Source: an uncultured Solirubrobacteraceae bacterium
GTDB taxonomy: Bacteria > Actinomycetota > Thermoleophilia > Solirubrobacterales > Solirubrobacteraceae
Direction of reading: 5' to 3'
NCBI GenBank assembly: GCA_902806205.1
Contig: CADCVR010000080.1
Coordinates: 1-52,321, forward strand
Length of the DNA stretch: 52,321 nt
Positions 1,840 through 41,008 of this stretch are shown here, one piece after another (position 1 is the first letter of the stretch; each line of letters begins with the position of its first letter). A model generated the notes under the pieces. It saw only the letters and a program-made list of their open reading frames with translations. It was not told where the DNA came from and ran no database searches. The translations under genes and the position numbers were made by a program.

Positions 1840-4620
1840 ATGGCCAGCACAACGGAGGAGCTCGAGAGGCGGTCGGCGGCCGGCGCGACGCGGACCTTCG
1901 CCGACGACGAGGCGCTGCTCGGCGCCGTGCTCGAGCAGATCATCCGGGCCACCGAGGGCGACGAGATGCTGGCCCTGCACGAGCAGACCGTCGACCTCGG
2001 CCGCCGGCTGCACGCCGGGGATGCGTCCGCGGCCGACGAGCTGGCCGAGCTCGTGGCGGAGCTGTCGCTGCACGATCTGCAACTGCTCATCCGGTCGCTC
2101 TCGGGCTGGTGCCAGCTGATGAACCTGGCCGAGGACAGCGAGCGTATCCGGCGCCTGCGTACCCGCGAGCTGCTGGACGCGCCGTCGCCGCGCCGCGGCT
2201 CCCTGGGCGACGCGGTGCAGCTGCTGGCCAACTCCGGCGTGAAGGCCGAGGAGCTGGCCGAGCTGCTGGGGGGCGCGGAGATCCGGCTCGTCATGACCGC
2301 GCACCCGACCGAGGCGCGCAGGCGCGCGACGGTGGCCAAGCAGGCGCGCATCTTCGCCGAGCTGCGGACGCTGGACGAGCGCCGGCTGACCGGGGGCGAC
2401 GTCGCGATGGCGCGCGAGCGGCTCGGCACCACGGTCCAGGAGCTCTGGGGCACCGACGAGGTCCGCACTGTCTCCACCACCGTCGACGACGAGGTGCGGG
2501 CGGGCCTCGTGTACTTCACCTCCACCCTCGCCGAGATCGTCCCGACGATCTACCGCGAGATGGAGCGCGCCGTGGCCGAGGAGTTCCCTCAGAGCACGAC
2601 GCGGATCCCCGCGCTGCTGACCTTCGGCTCGTGGATCGGCGGCGACCGCGACGGCAATCCCAACGTCACCTCCGAGGTGACCGCGCAGACGCTCGAGGCC
2701 AAGCGGACGGCGTGCCTGCGCTTCCTGCAAGACCAGGCCAACCTCCTGGCCACCCGGATCTCGCTGTCCGGCCGCCTGGCCGGGGAGCCCGACGAGCTGG
2801 CGTCGCTCCTCGCCGACGGCGACGAGCGCTTCCCCAACCTGGCGCGTGACCTTCGCCGGCGGTTCCCCGAGTCGCCGTACCGCCGGGTCTTCGCGCTCGT
2901 CGCACGCCGGCTGCGCGCCGCCCGGCGCGGCGAGCCGGAGGGCTACGCCCAGCCTTCCGAGCTGCTCGACGACCTGCGCGCCGCCGACCGCGCGCTGCGC
3001 CGGACCGGCAACTCGTTCGTGGCCGACGGCGAGCTGCACGACCTCATCCGCCAGGTCGAGGTCTTCGGCTTCCACTTCTCGCGGCTGGACATCCGCCAGC
3101 ATGCGGACCGTCACCGCGCCGCCCTTGCCGAGATCCTCACCACGCTCGATGTCGAAAAGAGCTACGCGGAGCTGCCCGAGGAGCAGCGGGTGGCACTGCT
3201 CGCCCGCACGATCGCCGACCGGCGGCCGGTCATCCCCTCCGACATCTCGGGCTTCTCCCCCGAGACGCAGGAGGTGGTGAGCACCTTCAGGATGCTGGCC
3301 TTGCTGCTCACCGGCGCCCACGCCGACGCGGTGCAGTCCTACATCGTCTCGGGCACCGCGGGACCCGCGGACCTGCTCGAGGTGCTGCTGTTGATGAAGG
3401 AGAGCGGCCTGTCCCAGGCAGGCGGCGAAGGCGCGATGCTGCGCATCGTCCCGCTGTTCGAGGCGGGTGACACGCTGGCCGGTGCGGCGGAGACGATGCG
3501 CACGCTGCTCTTTGAGCCCGTCTACCGCGCGGCGTTGCGTTCCGTGGGCGACGAGCAGGAGGTCATGGTCGGCTACTCGGACTCCAACAAGGACGTGGGC
3601 TACGTCGGCGCGGGCTGGGGGGTGTACCGCGCGCAGCTGCAGCTCGCCGACCTCCTGCGCGAACGCGGCGTCGCGTGTGCCTTCTTCCACGGTCGCGGCG
3701 GCGCCGTGGGGCGCGGGGGTGGACCCAGCAACGTGGCGATCCTCGCCCAGCCCGCCGGCACCGTGGACGGCCGGCTGAAGGTCACCGAGCAGGGTGAGGT
3801 CCTGTCGGCCAAGTACTCCAGCACCGAGATCGCGCATCGCGAGCTGGAGCTGACGGCCAGCGCGGTGCTGGCCAGCACCCGCCTGTGGCGCTCGATCGGG
3901 CAACCGCCACGTCTCGCGGCGTACGAGGAGGTCCTCGAGGAGATGGCGCGGTGCTCGTCGGTGGCCTATCAGGAGCTCGTGTACGGCGACCCGGCCTTCG
4001 CCTCGTTCTTCCACGCCGTCACGCCCGTCGACGAGATCTCGCGCTTGCAGCTCGGCTCGCGGCCGGCCAAACGCCGCAGCGGGCAGCGCATCGAGGACCT
4101 GCGCGCGATCCCGTGGGTGTTCTCCTGGACCCAGTCGCGGGTCATGCTGCCCGCCTGGTTCGGCTTGGGAATCGCGCTCGAGGCGGCGCGTGAGCAGGTG
4201 GGCATCGACCTGCTGCGCGACATGGACACCGACTGGCCGTTCTTCGCCGCGCTGCTCTCCAACGCCGAGATGGCGTGCTCGAAGGCGGACATGGTCATCG
4301 CCGGCCGGTACGCCGGGCTCTGCGAGAACGACGACGTGCGCGAACGCATCTGGCCCGTGCTGGAGCGCGAGTTCGAGCGCACCTGCCGCGAGCTGATCCT
4401 CGTCAACGGCGGGGAGCGCCTGCTCGACCGCGAGCCCGTGCTGCAACGCACGATCGAGCGGCGCAAGCCCTACGTGGATCCATTGTCGTTCATCCAGCTC
4501 GAGCTTCTGCGCCGCCTGCGCTCCGGTGCCGGTGAGTCCGCGAAGTCCGACGAGGAACTCGCGCGGGCGAGCTTCCTGGCCATCAACGGGATCGCCGGGG
4601 GGCTGCGGAACACGGGGTGA
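1840..4620 (+). CDS. ppc: phosphoenolpyruvate carboxylase
   Basis: A 926-residue full-length PEP carboxylase, which adds bicarbonate to PEP to give oxaloacetate and refills the TCA cycle. The signatures are in order: VMTAHPTEARRR at about 152 with the catalytic histidine, RDGNPNVT near 270, GYSDSNKDVGY at about 578 and FHGRGGAVGRGGGP at about 617. The IPWVFSWTQSRVMLP segment and the C-terminal NGIAGGLRNTG are also present; the conserved C-terminus is the effector and active-site closing region of the family. Length matches the bacterial enzyme. The ATG at 1840 is preceded by a TAGTCT box 6 nt upstream and no Shine-Dalgarno, so a leaderless mRNA is likely. It seems monocistronic, with a hairpin terminator 34 nt after the stop. 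Confidence 0.98.
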   Translation: MASTTEELERRSAAGATRTFADDEALLGAVLEQIIRATEGDEMLALHEQTVDLGRRLHAGDASAADELAELVAELSLHDLQLLIRSLSGWCQLMNLAEDSERIRRLRTRELLDAPSPRRGSLGDAVQLLANSGVKAEELAELLGGAEIRLVMTAHPTEARRRATVAKQARIFAELRTLDERRLTGGDVAMARERLGTTVQELWGTDEVRTVSTTVDDEVRAGLVYFTSTLAEIVPTIYREMERAVAEEFPQSTTRIPALLTFGSWIGGDRDGNPNVTSEVTAQTLEAKRTACLRFLQDQANLLATRISLSGRLAGEPDELASLLADGDERFPNLARDLRRRFPESPYRRVFALVARRLRAARRGEPEGYAQPSELLDDLRAADRALRRTGNSFVADGELHDLIRQVEVFGFHFSRLDIRQHADRHRAALAEILTTLDVEKSYAELPEEQRVALLARTIADRRPVIPSDISGFSPETQEVVSTFRMLALLLTGAHADAVQSYIVSGTAGPADLLEVLLLMKESGLSQAGGEGAMLRIVPLFEAGDTLAGAAETMRTLLFEPVYRAALRSVGDEQEVMVGYSDSNKDVGYVGAGWGVYRAQLQLADLLRERGVACAFFHGRGGAVGRGGGPSNVAILAQPAGTVDGRLKVTEQGEVLSAKYSSTEIAHRELELTASAVLASTRLWRSIGQPPRLAAYEEVLEEMARCSSVAYQELVYGDPAFASFFHAVTPVDEISRLQLGSRPAKRRSGQRIEDLRAIPWVFSWTQSRVMLPAWFGLGIALEAAREQVGIDLLRDMDTDWPFFAALLSNAEMACSKADMVIAGRYAGLCENDDVRERIWPVLEREFERTCRELILVNGGERLLDREPVLQRTIERRKPYVDPLSFIQLELLRRLRSGAGESAKSDEELARASFLAINGIAGGLRNTG

Positions 4621-4653
4621 TCCGGTCGCGACGCCGACAAGCGCTTCGAGCAT

Positions 4654-4682
4654 CAGAGCGGCCCGGCGGGGAAACCGCTCTG
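4654..4682 (+). terminator. hairpin downstream of ppc
   Basis: CAGAGCGG (4654-4661) and CCGCTCTG (4675-4682) form a perfect 8-bp stem around a 13-nt loop, 34 nt after the ppc stop. Only a short TCTTC follows, so it lacks a classical U-tract, as is common in high-GC actinobacteria. Confidence 0.5.
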
Positions 4683-4728
4683 TCTTCGAACAGACTGCCG
4701 AGGCCGCGACGGCGTCAGACTCGAGCGC

Positions 4729-4950
4729 ATGTGGATCGAGTCCTTCCCGGGTCGCACGTTGCGAGAAGCGTGGCTCTACCTCACACCCGACGAGGCCCGG
4801 GAGCTGCGGGGCGCGCTCGACGCCTGGGCCGCCGACGACCCGGTCGGCTCCGAGTGGCGCACGCAGATCACGGACTCCGACCGCCAGCTCACGCTCCTGG
4901 TCAGCCCCGACGTCGGAACCGAAGCCTTCCCGCGCCGGTTCCACATCTAA
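4729..4950 (+). CDS. small unknown protein (73 aa)
   Basis: A 73-residue soluble protein starting MWIESFPGRTLREAWLYLT. It contains TPDEARELRGALDAWAADDP and ends in VSPDVGTEAFPRRFHI. The composition looks like a genuine protein with an amphipathic helix followed by beta segments, and there is no membrane segment or signal peptide. CAGACT lies 7 nt before the ATG, a near match to the TAnnnT boxes seen at other starts. Family not recognised. It lies between ppc and another small unknown gene on the same strand, with gaps of 108 and 58 nt. Confidence 0.6.
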   Translation: MWIESFPGRTLREAWLYLTPDEARELRGALDAWAADDPVGSEWRTQITDSDRQLTLLVSPDVGTEAFPRRFHI

Positions 4951-4990
4951 GTCGTTCACGACACTCCCCGACGACGCCCGCAGCGCGCGA

Positions 4991-4996
4991 TAGGCT
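4991..4996 (+). promoter_or_regulatory. putative -10 box of the 5009 gene
   Basis: TAGGCT lies 12 nt before the ATG at 5009, leaving room for a leader of only about 5 nt. No Shine-Dalgarno is seen. Confidence 0.45.
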
Positions 4997-5008
4997 GGCC
5001 CGACCGAG

Positions 5009-5350
5009 ATGAGCGAGAGCCTCAGCCACGACGCGGTCGTCGCCGCACTCCAGGAGCGGCTGGGTGACTACTGGACGGTCACGGTGCGATCTGCGACCCC
5101 CGACGCACCGCTCATCGCCATGTTCAGCGGCGCCCTGCAGAAGGCCGAGCCCAAGGACGACGCTCCGCCCGGTGAGACGGACTTCGTCTGGTACGTCGGT
5201 GAGGGCAACAGCACGTTCGGTGCGTTCACCATTCCGCTGCAGGGCTTCCGCAAGGCGCAGTGGGAGCCGACGCACAAGGGCCCGAGCCTCATGGTCCAGT
5301 CCTCCAACGTGCTCATCGCGCTGTTCCCGCGGTCCGCCCGCGAGGAGTGA
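5009..5350 (+). CDS. small unknown protein (113 aa)
   Basis: A 113-residue soluble protein. The N-terminus (HDAVVAALQERLGDYWTVTV) predicts a helix leading into beta strands, and the middle is acidic and hydrophilic (KAEPKDDAPPGETD). The C-terminal part (FVWYVGEGNSTFGAFTIPL, then SSNVLIALFPRSAREE) looks like a small alpha/beta fold. No signal peptide, no membrane segment and no family recognised. It converges with the TauE-type permease gene, and a shared hairpin lies between them. Confidence 0.7.
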   Translation: MSESLSHDAVVAALQERLGDYWTVTVRSATPDAPLIAMFSGALQKAEPKDDAPPGETDFVWYVGEGNSTFGAFTIPLQGFRKAQWEPTHKGPSLMVQSSNVLIALFPRSAREE

Positions 5351-9482: not shown

Positions 9483-10739
9483 TCAGTCCAGCGGCTCGAG
9501 CCGCCTAGGGGCGCCGTGGGCCGCGAGCACCTCGGGCAGCACGACCGATCCGTCGGCGCGCTGGCCGTTCTCCGTCAGCGCGATCAGGGTGCGCCCCACG
9601 GCCACGGCGGTGCCGTTGAGCGTGTGCACCACGGCGGGCCTGCCCGTCGCCTCGCGGAAGCGCACGTTGAGTCGCCGCGCCTGGAAGTCGGTGGTGTTCG
9701 ACGTCGAGGTGAGCTCGCGGTACTGCCCCTGACCCGGGAGCCAGGCCTCGCAGTCGTACTTCTTGGCGGCGCTCGCGCCGAGGTCGTCCACCCCGATGTT
9801 CACGACGCGATAGGGAATCCGCAGCTCGGTGAGGATCTCCTCCTCGATCGCGAGCAGCCGCTCGTGCTCCGCGGCGCTCTCGTCGGGGTGGACGAAGCTG
9901 AACATCTCGACTTTGTCGAACTGGTGCACGCGGAAGATGCCGCGCGTGTCGCGGCCCGCGGTGCCCGCCTCCCGGCGAAAGCACGGGGAGAAGCCCGCGT
10001 AACGCCGCGGGAGGGTCGCCGCGGCGAGGATCTCCCCCGCGTGCAGCGAGGCGAGCGCGACCTCGCTCGTCCCCGCGAGGTACAGCTCGTCGGCGGGCAG
10101 GTGGTAGATCTGCTGCTCGGTGTCGGGCAGGAAGCCCGTGCCGTAGAGCGCCTCCTCGCGCACGAGGACCGGCGGGACGACGGGCTCGAAACCGTGCCGC
10201 TCGAGCTTGCGCAGCGTCCACTGGACCAGGGCGAGCTCCAGGAAGACGAGATCTCCGCGCAGGTAGGCGAACCGGGAGCCGCTCAGGCGCGCGCCGCGCT
10301 CCATGTCCACGCGCGCGCCTGCGAGGGCCAGGTGGTCCTGCGGCGAGAAGTCGAGCACCGGGACCTCGCCGACTTCGCGGATCACCTCGTCCGCAGGAGC
10401 AGCCGTGGGGTCGGGGATGTTGGGCAGCAGCGCGAGCGACGCCAGCAGCCGGCGGTCGGCGTCGGCGGCCTGCGCGGTCCGCAGCTTGACCTCCGTGGCG
10501 AGCTCGCGTGCGGCCGCGATCGCCGCGCCCGCGTCCTCGCCGGCGTTCTGCGCGGCGGCGATCGCCCGGGCGTCCTCCTTCTGCCGCGCCCGGAGTGTCT
10601 CCGCGGCCTCGGTGGCGCCGCGGCGCTCGGCGTCGAGCGCCAGGAGGGCGTCCACGGCGCCCGGGTCCACGTCGCCGCGACGGGCGAGCCCCTCGCGCAC
10701 GGCGTCGGGGTCGGAGCGGATCAGCCGGAGATCGAGCAT
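9483..10739 (-). CDS. serS: seryl-tRNA synthetase
   Basis: A 418-residue class II aminoacyl-tRNA synthetase that charges tRNA-Ser with serine. The N-terminal 100 residues form the usual long antiparallel coiled-coil arm that binds the long variable arm of tRNA-Ser. The catalytic core has the TSEVAL substrate loop near 225, motif 2 (FRREAGTAGRDTRGIFR) at about 250 and motif 3 (LNGTAVAVGRTLIALTENGQ) at about 370. Length is normal. The ATG at 10739 is preceded by TAGGCT 9 nt upstream and no Shine-Dalgarno. A cognate tRNA-Ser gene lies at 1699-1785 in the same window. Confidence 0.98.
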   Translation of the reverse strand: MLDLRLIRSDPDAVREGLARRGDVDPGAVDALLALDAERRGATEAAETLRARQKEDARAIAAAQNAGEDAGAAIAAARELATEVKLRTAQAADADRRLLASLALLPNIPDPTAAPADEVIREVGEVPVLDFSPQDHLALAGARVDMERGARLSGSRFAYLRGDLVFLELALVQWTLRKLERHGFEPVVPPVLVREEALYGTGFLPDTEQQIYHLPADELYLAGTSEVALASLHAGEILAAATLPRRYAGFSPCFRREAGTAGRDTRGIFRVHQFDKVEMFSFVHPDESAAEHERLLAIEEEILTELRIPYRVVNIGVDDLGASAAKKYDCEAWLPGQGQYRELTSTSNTTDFQARRLNVRFREATGRPAVVHTLNGTAVAVGRTLIALTENGQRADGSVVLPEVLAAHGAPRRLEPLD

Positions 10740-34432: not shown

Positions 34433-36208
34433 TCAGGTCGCCAGCGCGCCGATGACTTCGCGCCACCAGGAGCGCTCTGCTTCCTCGTCGGCCCGACTGA
34501 GGCGCCGACGCGCGGCCTGCTGCACGGCCTGCGCGGAGCCCGCCGCCACCGTCGTGCCGATGTAGGCCCAGCGGCCGTCGGCAAGGACGACGAGCGAGCC
34601 GGGGCGATCGCGGCGTGTGCGCACGCGCTCGGCGACCGCCACCGGTCCGACGTGGTCCGGGCGGGAGGCGTCGCCGTCGGCCTCCCTCCAGGGGCGCTCG
34701 GAGAAGATCAGCGAACGGCGCGCGGGGCGCGGCCGGGGCATGACCTCCAAGGGACCCTCGCGCCACCGCTGCAGCAGCCCGCGGAACTCCACGGCGACCT
34801 CCTGACGAACGAGGACGTGGAGCCGGTCGCCCGCCTCGACGCGGGTCGAGCCGCGCGGCGGAATCGCCTGGTGGCCGCGGATGATGACGTTGAGCAGCGC
34901 CTCACGGGGCATGCCGAGCTCGCGCACCAGGCGCCCGACGGCGGCGTCGCCGGCGCGCACGCCGAACTCGATGACCTCCGCGCCCAGGCGCCGCGTGGAC
35001 CCCTGGTCGGTGAGCACCGCGGGCAGCGCCGCCTCGTTCGTCGTGACCTTGAGCCGGGCGGCGACCCACTCGAAGGTCGTGCCCTGGATCACCGTGGAGA
35101 CGAGCACGGCGAAGAAGACGACGTTGAAGAACAGCAGGCTGCCCTCGAGGCCCGCGATGAGCGGGAAGGTCGCGAGCACGACGGGGACGCCGCCCCGCAG
35201 GCCCGCCCAGGAGAGCGCGACGGTCTCGGCCGGACTGAAGCGCGAGCCGAGCGTGCCGACGACCACGCCGACCGGCCGTGCGACCACGAGCAGCAGCGCG
35301 GTGATCGCGAGGCCCTCGAGCGCGACCCCCGGCAGCTGGGACGGGAAGACGAGCAGACCGAGGCTGACGAACAGGACGATCTGCGCGACCCAGGCCAGGC
35401 CGTCGTGGAAGGTCTGCACCGTGCGGGCGGCGGGCGAGTTCGTCGAGCCGATCGCCAGGCCGGTCAGATAGACCGCGAGGAAGCCCGAGCCGTGGAGGAA
35501 CTGCCCGGCGCCGAACGCGGTCGCGGCCGCCGCGATCGAGGCGACGGGGTACAGGCCGGCCGTGGAGAGCGAGACGTTGCGCAGCGCCCACGCCGCACCC
35601 TGCCCGACCAGCACGCCGACCGCGGCGCCGACGCCCATCTCGATCACGAACTCCTGGAGGAGGTCCACGGCGCCGTAGTCCGGGCGCTCGATCCACTCGA
35701 TGAAGCCCAGGACGAGCAGGATGGCGACGGGGTCGTTCATCCCCGCCTCGCCCTCGAGCGTGTGCGCGACGCGCTGGCGCAGCGTCGAGCCGCGGAGGAT
35801 CGAGAAGATCGCGGCGCCGTCGGTGACCGCCAGGATCGAGCCGAGCAGGAAGCCCTCGAGCCAGCTCAGGTCGAGAATCACCGCCGCCCCCGCCCCCGTG
35901 ATCAGCGCGGTGACCAGCGTGCCGACGGTCGCGAGGCCGAGGGCAGGCTTCAACACCCGGCGGATCGGCGACCAGCCGGACGCGAGGCCCCCCTCGAAGA
36001 GGATCAGCGCGAGGGCGACGACGCCCACGTCGCGGGCGAGCTCGTAATCGGAGAACGCGATGAGACCCGTGGCGTCGCTGCCGAGCAGCATGCCCAGGGT
36101 GAGGACGAGCAGCAGGCCGGGCACGCGGAGGCGCCCCGCGAGCTGGGAGGCCAGCAGCGCGAAGATGAGCATGCCGCCGAGGGCAAGCAGGAGACGGCCG
36201 TCGTCCAT
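34433..36208 (-). CDS. cation/proton antiporter (CPA1, NhaP2/CvrA-like) with TrkA-C domain
   Basis: A 591-residue membrane protein. The first 390 residues form a 12-13 helix Na+/H+ exchanger domain. It has LILFEGGLASGW near 75, TDGAAIFSILRGS near 130 and the ion-site signature LEGEAGMNDPVAILL near 155. A cytoplasmic TrkA-C (RCK_C) domain follows at about 400-490 (ALLNVIIRGHQAIPPRGSTR, then EAGDRLHVLVRQ). An unclassified basic tail of about 85 residues ends the protein. Relatives exchange K+ or Na+ for protons, gated by the RCK_C domain. ATG 36208 is preferred because AGGAG lies about 10 nt upstream; ATG 36217 sits only 1 nt from the same AGGAG. Confidence 0.9.
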   Translation of the reverse strand: MDDGRLLLALGGMLIFALLASQLAGRLRVPGLLLVLTLGMLLGSDATGLIAFSDYELARDVGVVALALILFEGGLASGWSPIRRVLKPALGLATVGTLVTALITGAGAAVILDLSWLEGFLLGSILAVTDGAAIFSILRGSTLRQRVAHTLEGEAGMNDPVAILLVLGFIEWIERPDYGAVDLLQEFVIEMGVGAAVGVLVGQGAAWALRNVSLSTAGLYPVASIAAAATAFGAGQFLHGSGFLAVYLTGLAIGSTNSPAARTVQTFHDGLAWVAQIVLFVSLGLLVFPSQLPGVALEGLAITALLLVVARPVGVVVGTLGSRFSPAETVALSWAGLRGGVPVVLATFPLIAGLEGSLLFFNVVFFAVLVSTVIQGTTFEWVAARLKVTTNEAALPAVLTDQGSTRRLGAEVIEFGVRAGDAAVGRLVRELGMPREALLNVIIRGHQAIPPRGSTRVEAGDRLHVLVRQEVAVEFRGLLQRWREGPLEVMPRPRPARRSLIFSERPWREADGDASRPDHVGPVAVAERVRTRRDRPGSLVVLADGRWAYIGTTVAAGSAQAVQQAARRRLSRADEEAERSWWREVIGALAT

Positions 36209-36322
36209 TGCTGGCATTCTCCTGTGTCAGGGCTCCCGACGGCCCGGCCCCGCCTCTGCTCGCTCGCTTCCCTGGGCCCGGGGTGTCAGGATCACTCGTC
36301 GGGAGCAGCCTTCCAGGAGCTC

Positions 36323-37342
36323 ATGGACCGCCCGCCTCGCCCACGTCCCCCCGCGCGCCCCTCGGCGCAGACGTTCCTTCGCCGCCGAGTGACGGCCGTC
36401 GCCGTACTGCTCGTCGGCGGCTTCACGCTCGTGCGGCTCGTCGGCGCGGTGCTCGGCGGGGACGGCGAGCAGCGGGCGACGGCCGCCCGCGGAGCGGAGG
36501 CACGACCGGCCTCCGACCAGGCGCAGGCCGCGACGCGTCCGCGCCCGAAGGCGACGCAGCTGCCGGGCGGCGGACGGACGTTCTTCCCCGACCGACGCGT
36601 GGTGGCCTTCTACGGCAACCCGGCCGACGACGAGCTCGGCGCGCTCGGCATCGGCACCCCGGACCAGGCCGCGCGAAGGCTCAAGCGCGTGGCCAGGAGC
36701 TACGAGCGCAAGTCACGGCCGGTGCTGCCCTGCCTCGAGCTCATCGCGACGGTCGCGGCGGGCTCGCCCGGCGACGACGGCAAGTACCGCATCCAGGCAC
36801 CGGAGAAGACGATCGACCGCTACCTGCGCGCGGCGCGCAAGGCCGGCGCCGTGCTCCTGCTCGACGTGCAGCCCGGGCTCGCGACGTTTCCCGAGGAGGT
36901 GCGCCGGCTGAAGAAGTGGCTCGTGCAGCCCGACGTCGGCCTCGCCCTGGATCCCGAGTGGCGCATCCAGCCCGGGCAGGTCCCCGGGAACGTGATCGGC
37001 TCGGTCAGCGCCCAGGAGGTCAACGCCGTGAGCATCGACCTCGCGGCGCTCGTGCGCGAGCGCAACCTGCCCGAGAAGCTCTTCGTCATCCACCAGTTCA
37101 CGAACGACATGGTGGCCGACAAGGAGAAGGTCAAGATCCGCAAGGGCCTGGCGACGGTCTTCAACGTCGACGGCTTCGGCGCTCCGGCCAACAAGATCTC
37201 GAAGTACCGCGAGTTCACGAAGTCCACGCCGAAGGGCGCCCACGACGGCTTCAAGGTGTTCTTCCGCGAGGACACCAACCGGATGCGTCCCGCGGCGGTC
37301 ATGGCGCTTCAGCCGCCGCCGGACATCATCGAGTACGAGTGA
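36323..37342 (+). CDS. exported or membrane-anchored unknown protein (339 aa)
   Basis: A 339-residue protein. An Arg/Pro-rich N-terminus leads into one hydrophobic segment (VTAVAVLLVGGFTLVRLVGA, about 24-43), so it is a signal anchor or exported protein. A linker of about 50 residues follows. The remaining domain of about 250 residues starts RRVVAFYGNPADDELGALG. It contains RPVLPCLELIATVAAGSPGD, AVLLLDVQPGLATFPEEV, VGLALDPEW and FVIHQFTNDMV. The regular strand-then-acidic pattern (LDV, ALDPEW) resembles a TIM-barrel hydrolase fold, but I do not know the family or substrate. The ATG at 36323 has AGGAG 3 nt upstream. It overlaps the convergent Nudix-type regulator gene by 34 nt. Confidence 0.8.
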   Translation: MDRPPRPRPPARPSAQTFLRRRVTAVAVLLVGGFTLVRLVGAVLGGDGEQRATAARGAEARPASDQAQAATRPRPKATQLPGGGRTFFPDRRVVAFYGNPADDELGALGIGTPDQAARRLKRVARSYERKSRPVLPCLELIATVAAGSPGDDGKYRIQAPEKTIDRYLRAARKAGAVLLLDVQPGLATFPEEVRRLKKWLVQPDVGLALDPEWRIQPGQVPGNVIGSVSAQEVNAVSIDLAALVRERNLPEKLFVIHQFTNDMVADKEKVKIRKGLATVFNVDGFGAPANKISKYREFTKSTPKGAHDGFKVFFREDTNRMRPAAVMALQPPPDIIEYE

Positions 37343-38010
37343 GGCGCGACGCGCTTGCGGCGCCCCGAGCCCCACGCAGGCCGCTGCGAGACGAAGCGGT
37401 AGAGCGCCGCGGGCCGGCCCGGCCCGGCTGAGCGCTGCTCGCCCGTCGCCTCGACGAGCCCCGTCGCCTTGAGGTCGCGCGCAAAGGTCGCCGGGTCGTA
37501 GTCCACCTTGGCGATGGCGGCGTAGACCGCGCGTGCCTGCGACAACGCGAAGCTCGCGGGGAGGGCGCCGGCCGCGACGTTCGACCACCACAGCTTGCCC
37601 TCCACCCGCTCGACGGCGGTGCGCAGGATGCGGCGGTGGTCGTGGGCGAGCGGGTGACGGCCACGCGCGGGCAGCCAGCGAGCCCGCTCGGACTCGACAT
37701 CGGCGGGAACGAGCACGAGGTGGGCGACGGTCGGGATCCAGCCACGCGCGTCGCGCCCGGGCGCCGCGAAGGTGGCGAGCTGCTCGAGGCCGGGGCGGTG
37801 CAGGCCCGTCTTCTCCCGGAGCTTGCGCCGCGCCGTGTCCAGTGGGTCCTCCTCCGGGCCGACGAAGCCGCCGGGCAGCGCGGGCGGGCCGTCGCCGGGG
37901 TCGGTGACCAGAACGCTGAGCACGCCGCTGCGGACGGCCAGCACGACGACGTCGACCGCGAGAGCGACGGGTGCGGGGTAGCCCTCGGAGTTCGTCGCGG
38001 TCCAGAGCAC
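37309..38010 (-). CDS. NrtR-like regulator (Nudix domain plus winged helix)
   Basis: A 233-residue protein. The N-terminal 130 residues are a Nudix fold (VDVVVLAVRSGVLSVLVTD, then LPGGFVGPEEDPLDTARRKL). Its Nudix box is degenerate: the REUxEE core reads RKLREK, so hydrolysis is unlikely. The C-terminal 70 residues are a winged helix ending in the NrtR-like GRPAALYRFV. NrtR proteins repress NAD-metabolism genes and release DNA on binding ADP-ribose. The GTG at 38010 is chosen because TACGTT lies 7 nt upstream; a TTG at 38019 is also in frame but would lie inside that box. The gene is divergent from the SPFH/NAD-kinase-like pair, with a palindrome between them. Confidence 0.85.
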   Translation of the reverse strand: MLWTATNSEGYPAPVALAVDVVVLAVRSGVLSVLVTDPGDGPPALPGGFVGPEEDPLDTARRKLREKTGLHRPGLEQLATFAAPGRDARGWIPTVAHLVLVPADVESERARWLPARGRHPLAHDHRRILRTAVERVEGKLWWSNVAAGALPASFALSQARAVYAAIAKVDYDPATFARDLKATGLVEATGEQRSAGPGRPAALYRFVSQRPAWGSGRRKRVAPHSYSMMSGGG

Positions 38011-38017
38011 TGAAGCC

Positions 38018-38023
38018 AACGTA
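38018..38023 (-). promoter_or_regulatory. putative -10 box of the NrtR-like gene
   Basis: TACGTT on the minus strand lies 7 nt before the GTG at 38010. The palindrome at 38045-38057 would then sit over the -35 region, a good place for self-repression. Confidence 0.45.
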
Positions 38024-38044
38024 CCGCGGCCGCCGGAACACCGA

Positions 38045-38077
38045 GACCATTTTGGTCAGTACGACGACAAGATGGTC
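38045..38077. promoter_or_regulatory. palindrome and repeated half-site, putative NrtR-like operator
   Basis: GACCA-TTT-TGGTC (38045-38057) is a perfect inverted repeat. A second TGGTC at 38073-38077 lies 20 bp after the first TGGTC, about two helical turns, on the same face of the DNA. The region separates the divergent NrtR-like and SPFH genes. TAGGCT at 38098-38103 may be the -10 box of the SPFH gene. Binding is inferred from position only. Confidence 0.5.
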
Positions 38078-38147
38078 GACAGTCGGCCATGGGTTCGATA
38101 GGCTGCGTTATAGGCAGAGTGCCCAAAATATTCCCCGGGAGATCGCC

Positions 38148-39155
38148 ATGGCCGAGATCGTCAAGTACCCCATCGTCAACCACCTTCGCTCCGCACCGAC
38201 CCTGCACGTCCTGCACTACCGCAAGGGCAAGCTCGTCGGCGCGGGCCCGGGCCTGGCGTTCTGGTTTCGCCCGCTCCACACCGCGGTCGCCGAGGTGCCC
38301 GTCGACGACCGTGAGCTCCCGTTCCTCTTCCGCGCCCGCAGCGCGGACTTCCAGGAGCTCACCGTCCAGGGCGCCATCACGTTCCGCGTCGCCGACCCGG
38401 CGCTGCTCGCCCGCCGCGTCGACTTCACGATCGAACTCGACGACGGCCGCTGGAACCAGGCGCCGCTCGACCAGGTCGCGGGCCTGCTCACCCAGCTCGC
38501 GCAACAGTTCGTGATCGACGAGCTCGTGCGTCTCGACGTCCGGCGCATCCTCGCCGACGGCGTGGCGCCCGTCCGCGATCGCATCGCGGCCGGGCTGGGC
38601 GGTGAAGTGGCGCTGGGCGAGCTCGGGCTCGAGGTCGTCGCGGTGCGTGTGGCGGCGGTCACCCCGACGGCGGAGCTGGAGAAGGCGCTGCGCCAGCCGA
38701 CCCGCGAGGCGATCCAGCAGCAGGCTGACGCCGCGACGTTCCAGCGCCGCGCCGAGGCCGTCGACAAGGAGCGCGCCATCGAGGAGAACGAGCTGCGCAA
38801 TCGCATCGAGCTCGCGCGGCGCGGCGAGCAGCTCGTCGTCCAGGAGGGCACGAACGAGCGGCGGCGGGCGGAGGAGCTGGCCGCCGCCGCGCAGATCCGG
38901 GCGGCCGCCGACGACGAGCGGGGGCGCCTGGAGGCGCACCGCGAGGCCGACACGACAGACGTCGTGCAGGCAGCTCGACTGCGGGCCGAGCGCGAGCGGG
39001 CGCAGATCCAGGCCGCGATGGGAGCTGAAGTCCTGGCCGCCCTGGCGCTGCGCGAGCTCGCCGGACAGGTCGGCCAGATCGAGCATCTCACGGTCACTCC
39101 CGATCTGCTCACCGGCATGCTGGCGCGCCTCACCGCGAACGGCGTGGAGGGCTGA
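38148..39155 (+). CDS. SPFH/band 7 domain protein
   Basis: A 335-residue protein. Residues about 10-175 form an SPFH (band 7) domain: LHVLHYRKGKLVGAGPGLAF, then RSADFQELTVQGAITFRVAD and a stomatin-like DVRRILADG segment. Residues about 180-300 are a charged Ala/Glu/Arg-rich coiled coil (EAIQQQADAATFQRRAEAVD, ERERAQIQ), typical of ring or cage assembly. No N-terminal membrane helix is seen, unlike classic stomatins, so it may assemble peripherally or in the cytoplasm. The ATG at 38148 has GGGAGA upstream. The NAD-kinase-like gene follows after 4 nt, so the two are surely co-transcribed, and the NrtR-like regulator gene is divergent. Confidence 0.88.
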   Translation: MAEIVKYPIVNHLRSAPTLHVLHYRKGKLVGAGPGLAFWFRPLHTAVAEVPVDDRELPFLFRARSADFQELTVQGAITFRVADPALLARRVDFTIELDDGRWNQAPLDQVAGLLTQLAQQFVIDELVRLDVRRILADGVAPVRDRIAAGLGGEVALGELGLEVVAVRVAAVTPTAELEKALRQPTREAIQQQADAATFQRRAEAVDKERAIEENELRNRIELARRGEQLVVQEGTNERRRAEELAAAAQIRAAADDERGRLEAHREADTTDVVQAARLRAERERAQIQAAMGAEVLAALALRELAGQVGQIEHLTVTPDLLTGMLARLTANGVEG

Positions 39156-39159
39156 AGCG

Positions 39160-40047
39160 ATGCTGCCGCGATGCGTGCTGGTCGAGCGGCCGACAGAGTA
39201 CGCCGACCTCCTGGCGCGCCACGGGACGCGCCAGGCCGCGTGGTTCTTCCTCGAGCAGCGGGGGCTCGAGCCCGGGGAGGTGGAGCGCCGGCACCTCGCG
39301 CACGCCGAGACGCGCGCGGCGGTGCTGGCGGCGGTGCCTCTCGAGTGGCGCACCGCGTCCATCACCCGCGCCGAGCTCGACCGGTTCCTCTTCGCCCCCG
39401 ACGACGTCGTGGTGGTTCTGGGGCAGGACGGGCTCGTCGCGAACGTCGCGAAGTACCTCGCCGGCCAGCCGGTGATCGGCTTGAACCCGGATCCCGACGG
39501 CGCAGGAGGCGTGCTCGTCCGCCATCCGCCGCGAGCGGCGGGCGACCTGCTGGCCGACGTCGTGGCCCAGCGCGCGGCGATCGAGCGGCGCACGATGGCC
39601 GAGGCCCTCCTGGACGACGGACAGCGGCTGCTCGCCCTCAACGAGGTCTTCGTCGGCCACGCCAGCCACCAGTCCGCCCGCTACACGCTCACCGCGCGCG
39701 GCCGCAGCGAGCGCCAGTCGTCCTCCGGCGTCATCGTCACCACGGGCACCGGCGCGACGGGCTGGGCGGCGAGCATCAGCCGCGAGCGCCCGGAGCCGGT
39801 TGCGCTCCCCGCCCCCGCTGACGGGCGCCTCGCGTTCTTGGTGCGCGAGGCGTGGCCCAGCCCGGCGACGGACACCACGCTCACCCAGGGCCTGCTCGTC
39901 CCGCCCGACGCGCTCGAGATCACCTGCGAGCTCGGCCGGGGCGGCGTCGTGTTCGGCGACGGCATCGAGTCCGACCGCCTCGAACTCGCCTGGGGGCAGC
40001 GCCTGCGCGTGCGGACCGCCCGCGAGACGCTGGCGCTGGTGACCTGA
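39160..40047 (+). CDS. NAD kinase-like protein
   Basis: A 295-residue protein of the NAD kinase/diacylglycerol-kinase-like superfamily. The motif order is kept: VVVLGQDGLVANVAKYL near 84 (the GGDGT place, here GQDGL), PVIGLNPDPDGAGGVLV near 104, LNEVFVGHASHQSARYTL near 158 (the NE motif) and SSGVIVTTGTGATGWAASI near 188 (the DGxIxxTPTGSTAY place). The C-terminal beta region (FGDGIESDRLELAWGQRLRV) also fits NAD kinases. The first 70 residues (ERPTEYADLLARHGTRQAAW onward) lack a clear match. Whether it phosphorylates NAD is uncertain given the altered GGDGT. It is coupled to the SPFH gene. Confidence 0.82.
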   Translation: MLPRCVLVERPTEYADLLARHGTRQAAWFFLEQRGLEPGEVERRHLAHAETRAAVLAAVPLEWRTASITRAELDRFLFAPDDVVVVLGQDGLVANVAKYLAGQPVIGLNPDPDGAGGVLVRHPPRAAGDLLADVVAQRAAIERRTMAEALLDDGQRLLALNEVFVGHASHQSARYTLTARGRSERQSSSGVIVTTGTGATGWAASISRERPEPVALPAPADGRLAFLVREAWPSPATDTTLTQGLLVPPDALEITCELGRGGVVFGDGIESDRLELAWGQRLRVRTARETLALVT

Positions 40048-40090: not shown

Positions 40091-40981
40091 TCAAGCCAGC
40101 CGCTGGAGGAGGTCCTCAGCGGCGAGGAGGTCGCCGGGGTCGAGGTCGCGCCAGACCAGCCGCAGGGTGTCGACGCCGTGGCGCTTCAGCGCGCGGTCGC
40201 GCAGGCGATCCGCCTCGAAGTCGTTGCGGCGCGTGTGGTGCGCGCGGGAGTCGAGCTCGACGACCAGCTTCGCGTCGCGGTACCAGCAGTCGACGAGGAC
40301 GCCATGGACGCGGACGTTGCGCTGGTCGGGGTGCGGCACCCCGTGAAGCTCGCAGTAGCGAACGTAGCGCCGCTCCATCTCCGAGCGGGTGTGGGCGTCC
40401 TCGCCGTGGATGAGCCGGTGAGTGCGTCCGGCGCCCGCCCGACCGGTGAGCCGCTGCGCCGTGACGACGAGTCGCCCCCTCGGGAGTGACGGAAGCTGGT
40501 CGGCGACCCGGCGCAGCTCGTCGTAGGCGAGGTGGTCGGCGAGGTCGATCACCGTGCGCACGCGGTCGGTCACCCGCAGCAACCCGTAGGCGACGACATC
40601 GCGGTGGTCGAGGTGACGGGTGCGATGGACGACGACGTCGCCGCGGCTGCGGACGCCGTCGCCCGGCACGCTCAGGTGGATGTGCGGCGAGCCGCGCTCG
40701 GTGATCCAGCCGTAGAACGCCGCTGCCGACTCGTGCGACAGCGCCGCGCCGTCGCCGGCCCACCACACCGCGGCGAGGAACCGCGCGCGCCGAGAGATCG
40801 CGCGGTGACCGAGCGCGTAGACGCCGGGGTGGAGTGCGAGCAGGCGCCCGTTGTTGACCAGTCGCCGGACCTGCCGCTGGTGATAGCCCAACGCCATCAG
40901 GTCGCTGCGACGTACGAGCCCCTCCTGACGCTCCGCCTGCGCGACGACCTCGACCCAGGGCTTGGCAGTCTGTGACCGCAT
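40091..40981 (-). CDS. AbiEi-like winged helix plus DUF559 (Vsr-like nuclease fold) protein
   Basis: A 296-residue protein. The N-terminal 55 residues resemble the AbiEi antitoxin winged helix (QEGLVRRSDLMALGYHQRQV, then RLLALHPGVYALGH). A middle domain (to about 190) contains LSHESAAAFYGWI and HIHLSVPG. The C-terminal 95 residues match DUF559, a restriction-endonuclease-like fold related to Vsr: an early Glu in EMERRYVRYC, VLVDCWYRDAKLVVELDSRA with D and ExD, then HHTRRNDFEADRLRDRAL. It is probably a DNA-binding protein with a candidate nuclease site; the function is unknown. ATG 40981 is preferred, but an in-frame TTG lies at 41002. No cognate AbiEii toxin gene is adjacent. Inverted repeats flank the gene. 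Confidence 0.85.
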   Translation of the reverse strand: MRSQTAKPWVEVVAQAERQEGLVRRSDLMALGYHQRQVRRLVNNGRLLALHPGVYALGHRAISRRARFLAAVWWAGDGAALSHESAAAFYGWITERGSPHIHLSVPGDGVRSRGDVVVHRTRHLDHRDVVAYGLLRVTDRVRTVIDLADHLAYDELRRVADQLPSLPRGRLVVTAQRLTGRAGAGRTHRLIHGEDAHTRSEMERRYVRYCELHGVPHPDQRNVRVHGVLVDCWYRDAKLVVELDSRAHHTRRNDFEADRLRDRALKRHGVDTLRLVWRDLDPGDLLAAEDLLQRLA

Positions 40982-40986
40982 CTCTG

Positions 40987-41008
40987 GGTCATTAGGCGCC
41001 AAGCCCCC
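40987..41008. repeat. right inverted repeat flanking the DUF559 gene
   Basis: The reverse complement reads GGGGGCTTGGCGC, CTAA, TGACC, matching 40048-40069 at 18 of 22 positions. It lies directly upstream of the DUF559 gene start, so it could be an operator as well as an element end. Confidence 0.8.

Follow-up and report, generated by a model that had tools for sequence, protein, structure and literature searches.

The 52,321 nt contig CADCVR010000080.1 (assembly GCA_902806205.1) of an uncultured Solirubrobacteraceae bacterium, referred to below as the window, carries at 37309-40047 three neighbouring genes, one for an NrtR-like regulator, one for an SPFH protein and one for an NAD-kinase-like protein. 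An earlier description made from the letters alone (the sequence-only reading) had a two-gene unit of the SPFH and kinase genes with a 4 nt gap, facing a Nudix/winged-helix gene. Coordinates and Pfam domains agree with this arrangement, and the SPFH stop and the kinase start are exactly 4 nt apart. The three genes are:

37309-38019, minus strand: NrtR-like repressor gene (Pfam NUDIX and NrtR_WHD); the start, TTG at 38019 or GTG at 38010, is uncertain
38148-39155, plus strand: SPFH (band 7) gene (Pfam Band_7), ATG start, 335 aa
39160-40047, plus strand: NAD-kinase-fold gene, NADK2-like, ATG start, 295 aa

At 37309-37342 the regulator gene and the upstream plus-strand open reading frame overlap tail to tail by 34 bp at their 3' ends, provided that both stop codons are correct.

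The three proteins

The regulator consists of a Nudix sensor domain fused to a C-terminal winged helix (NrtR_WHD, E 6.1e-14; NUDIX, E 7.2e-9; both over cut-off) and is the sole NrtR_WHD match in the genome. It shares this build with NrtR regulators such as MsNrtR of Mycolicibacterium smegmatis (PMC6800001) and the NrtR of Shewanella (PDB 3gz5), and its best solved relatives are MutT/Nudix-WHD proteins, AraR and NadQ. Against the NCBIfam model NF050029 (NtrR equivalog) it scores 102 bits where the cut-off is 400, and hence it is not an ortholog of that curated group. The Nudix box of the window protein is degenerate (LPGGFVGPEEDPLDTARRKLREKTGL), its RKL-EK resembling the degenerate box of the 3gz5 chain. 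When short or truncated reads were entered as not intact, an intact box was found in the majority of actinobacterial relatives (34 of the 43 divergent regulators), and the box was degenerate in the lineage of the window and in 23 of the 26 co-directional regulators. As intact and degenerate boxes both occur, some members of the regulator family may hydrolyse their own inducer, whereas the window regulator is probably a pure sensor.

The AlphaFold2 model of the kinase-like protein (pLDDT 92.7) has the two-domain NAD-kinase fold and matched NAD kinases over its whole length, so the NAD-kinase-like fold claimed in the sequence-only reading stands. The best matches with VIA-align were to structures of human mitochondrial NADK2 (PDB 7r4j, 7r4l and 7n29; Z 25.0-25.8, at best with an rmsd of 2.7 A over 278 residues and 22% identity), the canonical bacterial enzymes (NadK/PpnK), which have the same fold, reaching at most 22.9. 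A profile search also placed NADK2 first (E 2.4e-18, against 3.1e-8 for the bacterial enzymes), and Foldseek ranked the NadK of Pseudomonas first by E-value and NADK2 higher by TM-score. NADK2 and the window kinase have the motifs NxDPERxEG and SSGLxxxTGTG in common, but the solved NADK2 chains are about 390-400 aa long and contain GGDG, while the window kinase is bacterial, is shorter, reads GQDG and is genetically tied to an SPFH protein.

The motifs of the window kinase are GQDG (88-91), LNE (160-162), SSSGVIVTTGTGATGW (187-202) and a C-terminal FGDGIE (265-270). In 41 sequences of the family N161, E162, G196 and G198 are invariant, and T195 and T197 are conserved in at least 90%. The first motif is GQDG, sometimes GPDG, with a nearly invariant D (one GQSG was seen), and the next residue is always L, a position at which canonical kinases mostly carry T or N. 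Since the protein keeps the D of GQDG, both residues of NE and the TGTG motif, all of which are common to canonical NadK/PpnK, it is likely to be active as a kinase. Its substrate would be NAD(H), as for the enzymes that it resembles most. There are three PF01513 (NAD_kinase) matches in the genome, two of them over cut-off, and the best is a separate canonical NAD kinase encoded elsewhere.

The SPFH protein matches Pfam Band_7 (E 1.2e-15; 58.5 bits, cut-off 23.6) and is encoded by one of three Band_7 genes in the genome. Its AlphaFold2 model (pLDDT 88) comprises an SPFH domain (residues ~1-173) and a single long helix of 116 residues (175-290), the combination found in HflK/C, stomatin, erlin, prohibitin and the vault shoulder, which were its fold matches. 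In solved SPFH ring proteins, such long helices lie side by side and form rings or cages. HflK/C, though not all SPFH proteins, have an N-terminal membrane helix, but none was found in the window protein, in which the maximum 19-residue hydropathy is 1.62 (1.74 over 38 homologues), values with which monotopic membrane association is still possible. An aromatic segment near the N-terminus, GLAFWF, is nearly invariant. SPFH ring proteins partner a protease or an NfeD protein, whereas the partner here is a small-molecule kinase.

Conservation of the trio and its operators

Six of 61 relatives' genomes carry the kinase at strong scores, and its presence is thus patchy. In the five nearest relatives besides the genome of the window, the SPFH gene adjoins the kinase gene in all five and a divergent regulator is present in four, the proteins of the trio sharing 64-72% identity. 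With each species represented by one genome, a wider scan gave at least 436 relatives. Of the 80 loci kept from these, 79 have DNA upstream of the kinase gene, and in every one of the 79 this gene is immediately preceded, on the same strand, by the SPFH gene. The gap is usually a few nucleotides, and once about 1 kb. Similarly, a phylum sample of 396 genomes yielded 20 strong kinase matches, all 20 with an SPFH gene beside them. The pair occurs in at least six phyla (Actinomycetota, Planctomycetota, Myxococcota, Acidobacteriota, Pseudomonadota and Chloroflexota), which rules out that the trio are chance neighbours. An NrtR-like gene is divergent in 34 of the 80 loci, co-directional in 22 and further off in five, and 19 have none. 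The divergent layout is that of most Actinomycetota, and a co-directional regulator gene, first in the operon, that of most loci in other phyla. The expectation of the sequence-only reading that the three genes would be neighbours in related genomes therefore holds throughout for the pair, and in about three quarters of cases for the adjacent NrtR-like gene.

In the kinase tree, the window clusters with Solirubrobacterales within a group whose members are nearly all actinobacterial, and the history of the family within Actinomycetota appears largely vertical. Among plasmid matches to the kinase family, 42 of 62 were from Rhizobium, as exemplified by the trio on plasmid p42f of Rhizobium etli (NUDIX RHE_RS26555, SPFH RHE_RS26550 and RHE_RS26545), where the kinase-family member RHE_RS26545 (L132, 5980-6918) is annotated as a sugar kinase.

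When the open reading frames within ~6 kb on each side were clustered, nothing besides the trio recurred apart from synteny within a genus, NAD genes appearing at individual loci only, and this rules out a larger conserved operon. At loci lacking an NrtR gene, the adjacent genes varied and no common alternative regulator was seen. Next to the trio in the window, 40091-41002 (minus strand, convergent to the kinase gene) encodes an AbiEi-type antitoxin helix-turn-helix domain with a DUF559/REase-like domain (Pfam), not seen in conserved linkage with the trio, and 34433-36217 (minus strand) encodes a potassium/proton antiporter (NCBIfam PRK05326 family). In one unclassified genome a C5 cytosine DNA methylase gene lies just downstream of the trio (L079, 9690-11237).

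Between the divergent genes, where a palindrome had been noticed, there are two 21-bp pseudo-palindromes, which flank a candidate promoter:

38050-38070, no strand assigned: operator 1, TTTTGGTCAGTACGACGACAA, an 8-5-8 pseudo-palindrome found by phylogenetic footprinting and among the genome's best two sites
38076-38104, plus strand: candidate SPFH-kinase promoter, TCGACA-17 nt-TAGGCT, between the operators, by eye against L011, L012 and L014
38108-38128, no strand assigned: operator 2, TTATAGGCAGAGTGCCCAAAA, found by phylogenetic footprinting, differing from the relatives' pattern at 1 position

The two operators are the best pair of sites for the relatives' pattern in the whole 3.4-Mb genome, far beyond chance. 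A scan of the window for sigma-70 promoters found no consensus promoter, and 38076-38104 is a possible SPFH-kinase promoter from its resemblance to TTGACY-17-TANNNT at the same place in the three loci compared.

Alignment of divergent intergenic regions from actinobacteria of many families revealed that TTATCGTC-N5-GACGATAA occurs twice, in most cases with a spacing of 33-34 bp. The right half of site 1 holds TTGACG and the left half of site 2 TATCGT, at promoter spacing, and a repressor on both sites would, to judge from these positions, cover both promoter elements. Sites in the lineage of the window are of the TTTTNGKC-N5 type, those of planctomycetes, myxobacteria and others are ATATATGC-N5-GCATATAT before the regulator gene, and gammaproteobacteria have TTAGTGTA-N5-TACACTAA. 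Four patterns gave 69, 49, 30 and 6 sites in the promoter regions against 6, 14, 4 and 1 in the rest of the 1.41 Mb of fetched DNA, counts that are not independent because the first two patterns overlap in part. The ATATATGC pattern was matched in four of six genomes, in each at one contig position only. Hence, each lineage has its own version of the operator, strongly concentrated at the promoters of the SPFH-kinase and regulator genes. An operator is present in 56 of the 61 loci with an adjacent regulator and in nine of 21 without.

Connections with NAD metabolism

In all five genomes of a large-genome genus (g87, probably Streptomyces), the regulator gene is distant from the SPFH-kinase pair, and the same operator lies before the pair, before the NAD-salvage gene for nicotinate phosphoribosyltransferase (pncB) and at the start of the distal NUDIX-NrtR_WHD gene. 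No operator was found before pncB of other genera. Elsewhere, the operon itself is extended: a gammaproteobacterial genome has regulator-SPFH-kinase-nadA (L044), and a Caulobacteraceae genome has SPFH-kinase-pncB followed by a gene of the isochorismatase family, PncA-like (L078). In a myxobacterial genome (L031) the trio is preceded, at a distance of about 5 kb, by an NrtR-pncB pair. A nicotinate phosphoribosyltransferase (NAPRTase) neighbour suggested by a GTSN motif at L064 was rejected, as Pfam found none.

Two further observations concern regulators and sites in g87. Its genomes have a second NrtR paralogue (L187, ~4072-4989; L188, ~4372-5130) with a site of its own, TTATAGTC-N5-GACTATAA, at its start. 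In one genome (G083, L186) two near-perfect TTATCGTC-N5-GACGATAA sites (4070-4090 and 10509-10529) precede genes unrelated to the trio; these were left uncounted and may be targets of a different regulator family whose site is similar.

Operator conservation, co-regulation of pncB and the extension of operons by nadA or pncB place the unit in NAD metabolism, and bear out the earlier claim that an NrtR-type regulator controls the pair of SPFH and NAD-kinase-fold genes as such a unit. Autoregulation, palindromic operators at the regulator's own and target promoters, and targets in NAD metabolism are traits of the NrtR family, and regulation of the module by an NrtR-type protein is well supported. 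The details differ, MsNrtR recognising GTTTTCGA-N7-TCGAAAAC where the window has paired operators of another sequence, and NrtR regulators targeting nadABC where the main target here is the SPFH-kinase operon.

Weighing the explanations

We favour, as somewhat better than an even bet, a self-contained NAD(P) module under regulation of the ADP-ribose type, in which an SPFH ring probably carries the kinase. ADP-ribose would be the ligand by analogy with characterised NrtR proteins, which leave DNA upon binding it (cited in PMC9503650). Several findings count against this reading. The kinase scores 19.5 bits with PF01513, below the cut-off of 25.5, and its GQDG departs from the catalytic GGDG. 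Evolutionary distances of the SPFH and kinase proteins correlate (r = 0.87), but shared ancestry could by itself also give this value. Neither an SPFH-kinase fusion nor one of any other two of the trio was seen, and a physical hold of an SPFH scaffold on the kinase, also part of the sequence-only reading, is inferred. Finally, about a quarter of the loci are without an adjacent regulator and 12 of these also lack a recognisable operator, so control by NrtR is not universal.

The divergence of the kinase also raises the question of whether it phosphorylates another target (NADH preferentially, ADP-ribose, NMN or another nucleotide from NAD degradation) in a module that detoxifies or signals, which we consider rather unlikely. 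It diverges from all curated NAD-kinase models, scoring ~30 bits or less against NCBIfam NAD-kinase equivalogs with cut-offs of 211 or more. The substitution in GGDG and the invariant L after it point the same way, as does the canonical NAD kinase already in the genome. In a planctomycete (L069, 7847-8857), moreover, a PARG-type ADP-ribose glycohydrolase gene stands directly upstream of the SPFH-kinase pair, in the place of the regulator. However, the catalytic D, the NE residues and the TGTG(A/S) motif are retained, the whole protein matches the fold of an NAD(H) kinase, NADK2, and NADP supply is a direct match for co-regulation with genes of NAD synthesis and salvage.

Alternatively, the SPFH protein could be the main actor, as a membrane-domain or chaperone-like scaffold in membrane stress, with the kinase supplying NADPH locally or regulating it and NAD breakdown acting only as the alarm. 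SPFH proteins do organise membranes and proteases (HflK/C-FtsH, stomatin, flotillin), the fold matches are to such proteins, and the GLAFWF segment is near-invariant. This is nevertheless improbable given that the protein has no membrane helix, that no NfeD-type or protease partner recurs near the pair and that the extra co-regulated or co-transcribed genes encode NAD enzymes rather than membrane functions.

The sequence-only reading had also suggested an anti-phage response, here a system that rebuilds NADP after an anti-phage or toxin effector depletes NAD, and its logic fits in that ADP-ribose is a product of NADase attack, related NrtR/Nudix regulators occur within ADP-ribosyl-hydrolase conflict systems (PMC9503650) and presence is patchy, but we hold it to be very improbable because the three proteins had no PADLOC match at E up to 1, no relatives were found in phage records or, in a narrow pattern search, in viral contigs, no defence family recurred among the immediate neighbours (PADLOC; any model in at most two of 72, from crude gene calls and with no background rate) and the kinase tree is largely vertical within Actinomycetota. 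A defence island around the trio is likewise unsupported by the PADLOC, phage-record and neighbour searches. The ARG-centred, Nudix/WYL-regulated conflict systems described in PMC9503650 resemble the unit in having a Nudix-type repressor thought to sense ADP-ribose and in occurring over an overlapping set of phyla, but ADP-ribosylglycohydrolase, phosphatase and chaperone genes do not recur near the trio, and that paper mentions neither SPFH nor NAD kinase.

Under the favoured reading of an NAD(P) module, the NrtR-like protein would bind the two 21-bp operators, which overlap or bracket the promoter, and repress its own gene as well as the SPFH-kinase operon. During NAD breakdown or turnover, ADP-ribose on the Nudix domain would relieve this repression. 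The NADK2-type kinase would then phosphorylate NAD(H) to NADP(H) and restore the NADP pool alongside the housekeeping NAD kinase, a separate enzyme, and where pncB is co-regulated NAD salvage would be induced alongside it. The long helix of the SPFH protein most likely drives assembly of a ring or cage, which may concentrate, position or regulate the kinase, possibly at the membrane. In its fullest form this would be a bacterial NAD(P) metabolon, in which a soluble SPFH ring or cage carries or encloses an ADP-ribose-induced NADK2-type kinase, and this kinase would belong to a bacterial lineage akin to the NAD kinase of eukaryotic mitochondria. We put this proposal forward tentatively and would not yet expect it to hold in every part.

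That no function had been described for this trio, as stated in the sequence-only reading, is consistent with our literature search, which found nothing joining SPFH with NAD kinase or NADK, though the main NrtR regulon paper (PMC2330246) lay outside the search and may contain a prior mention. The trio thus appears not to have been described before, and what is new is the enzyme subfamily and the kind of partner that this NrtR regulon contains. For hundreds of gene pairs that are unannotated or misannotated, such as that of the Rhizobium 'sugar kinase', it offers a function that can be tested, and it would give many bacteria a second NAD kinase, an inducible one, for NAD homeostasis. The literature search showed no earlier case of an SPFH scaffold linked to a metabolic enzyme. 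The kinase also indicates where among bacteria the mitochondrial NAD kinase may have relatives, eukaryotic NAD kinases having had no consistent prokaryotic sister and their closest prokaryotic relatives having been reported as unresolved (PMC6675116). The unit suggests that bacteria may rebuild their NADP supply on a scaffold while NAD is being consumed.
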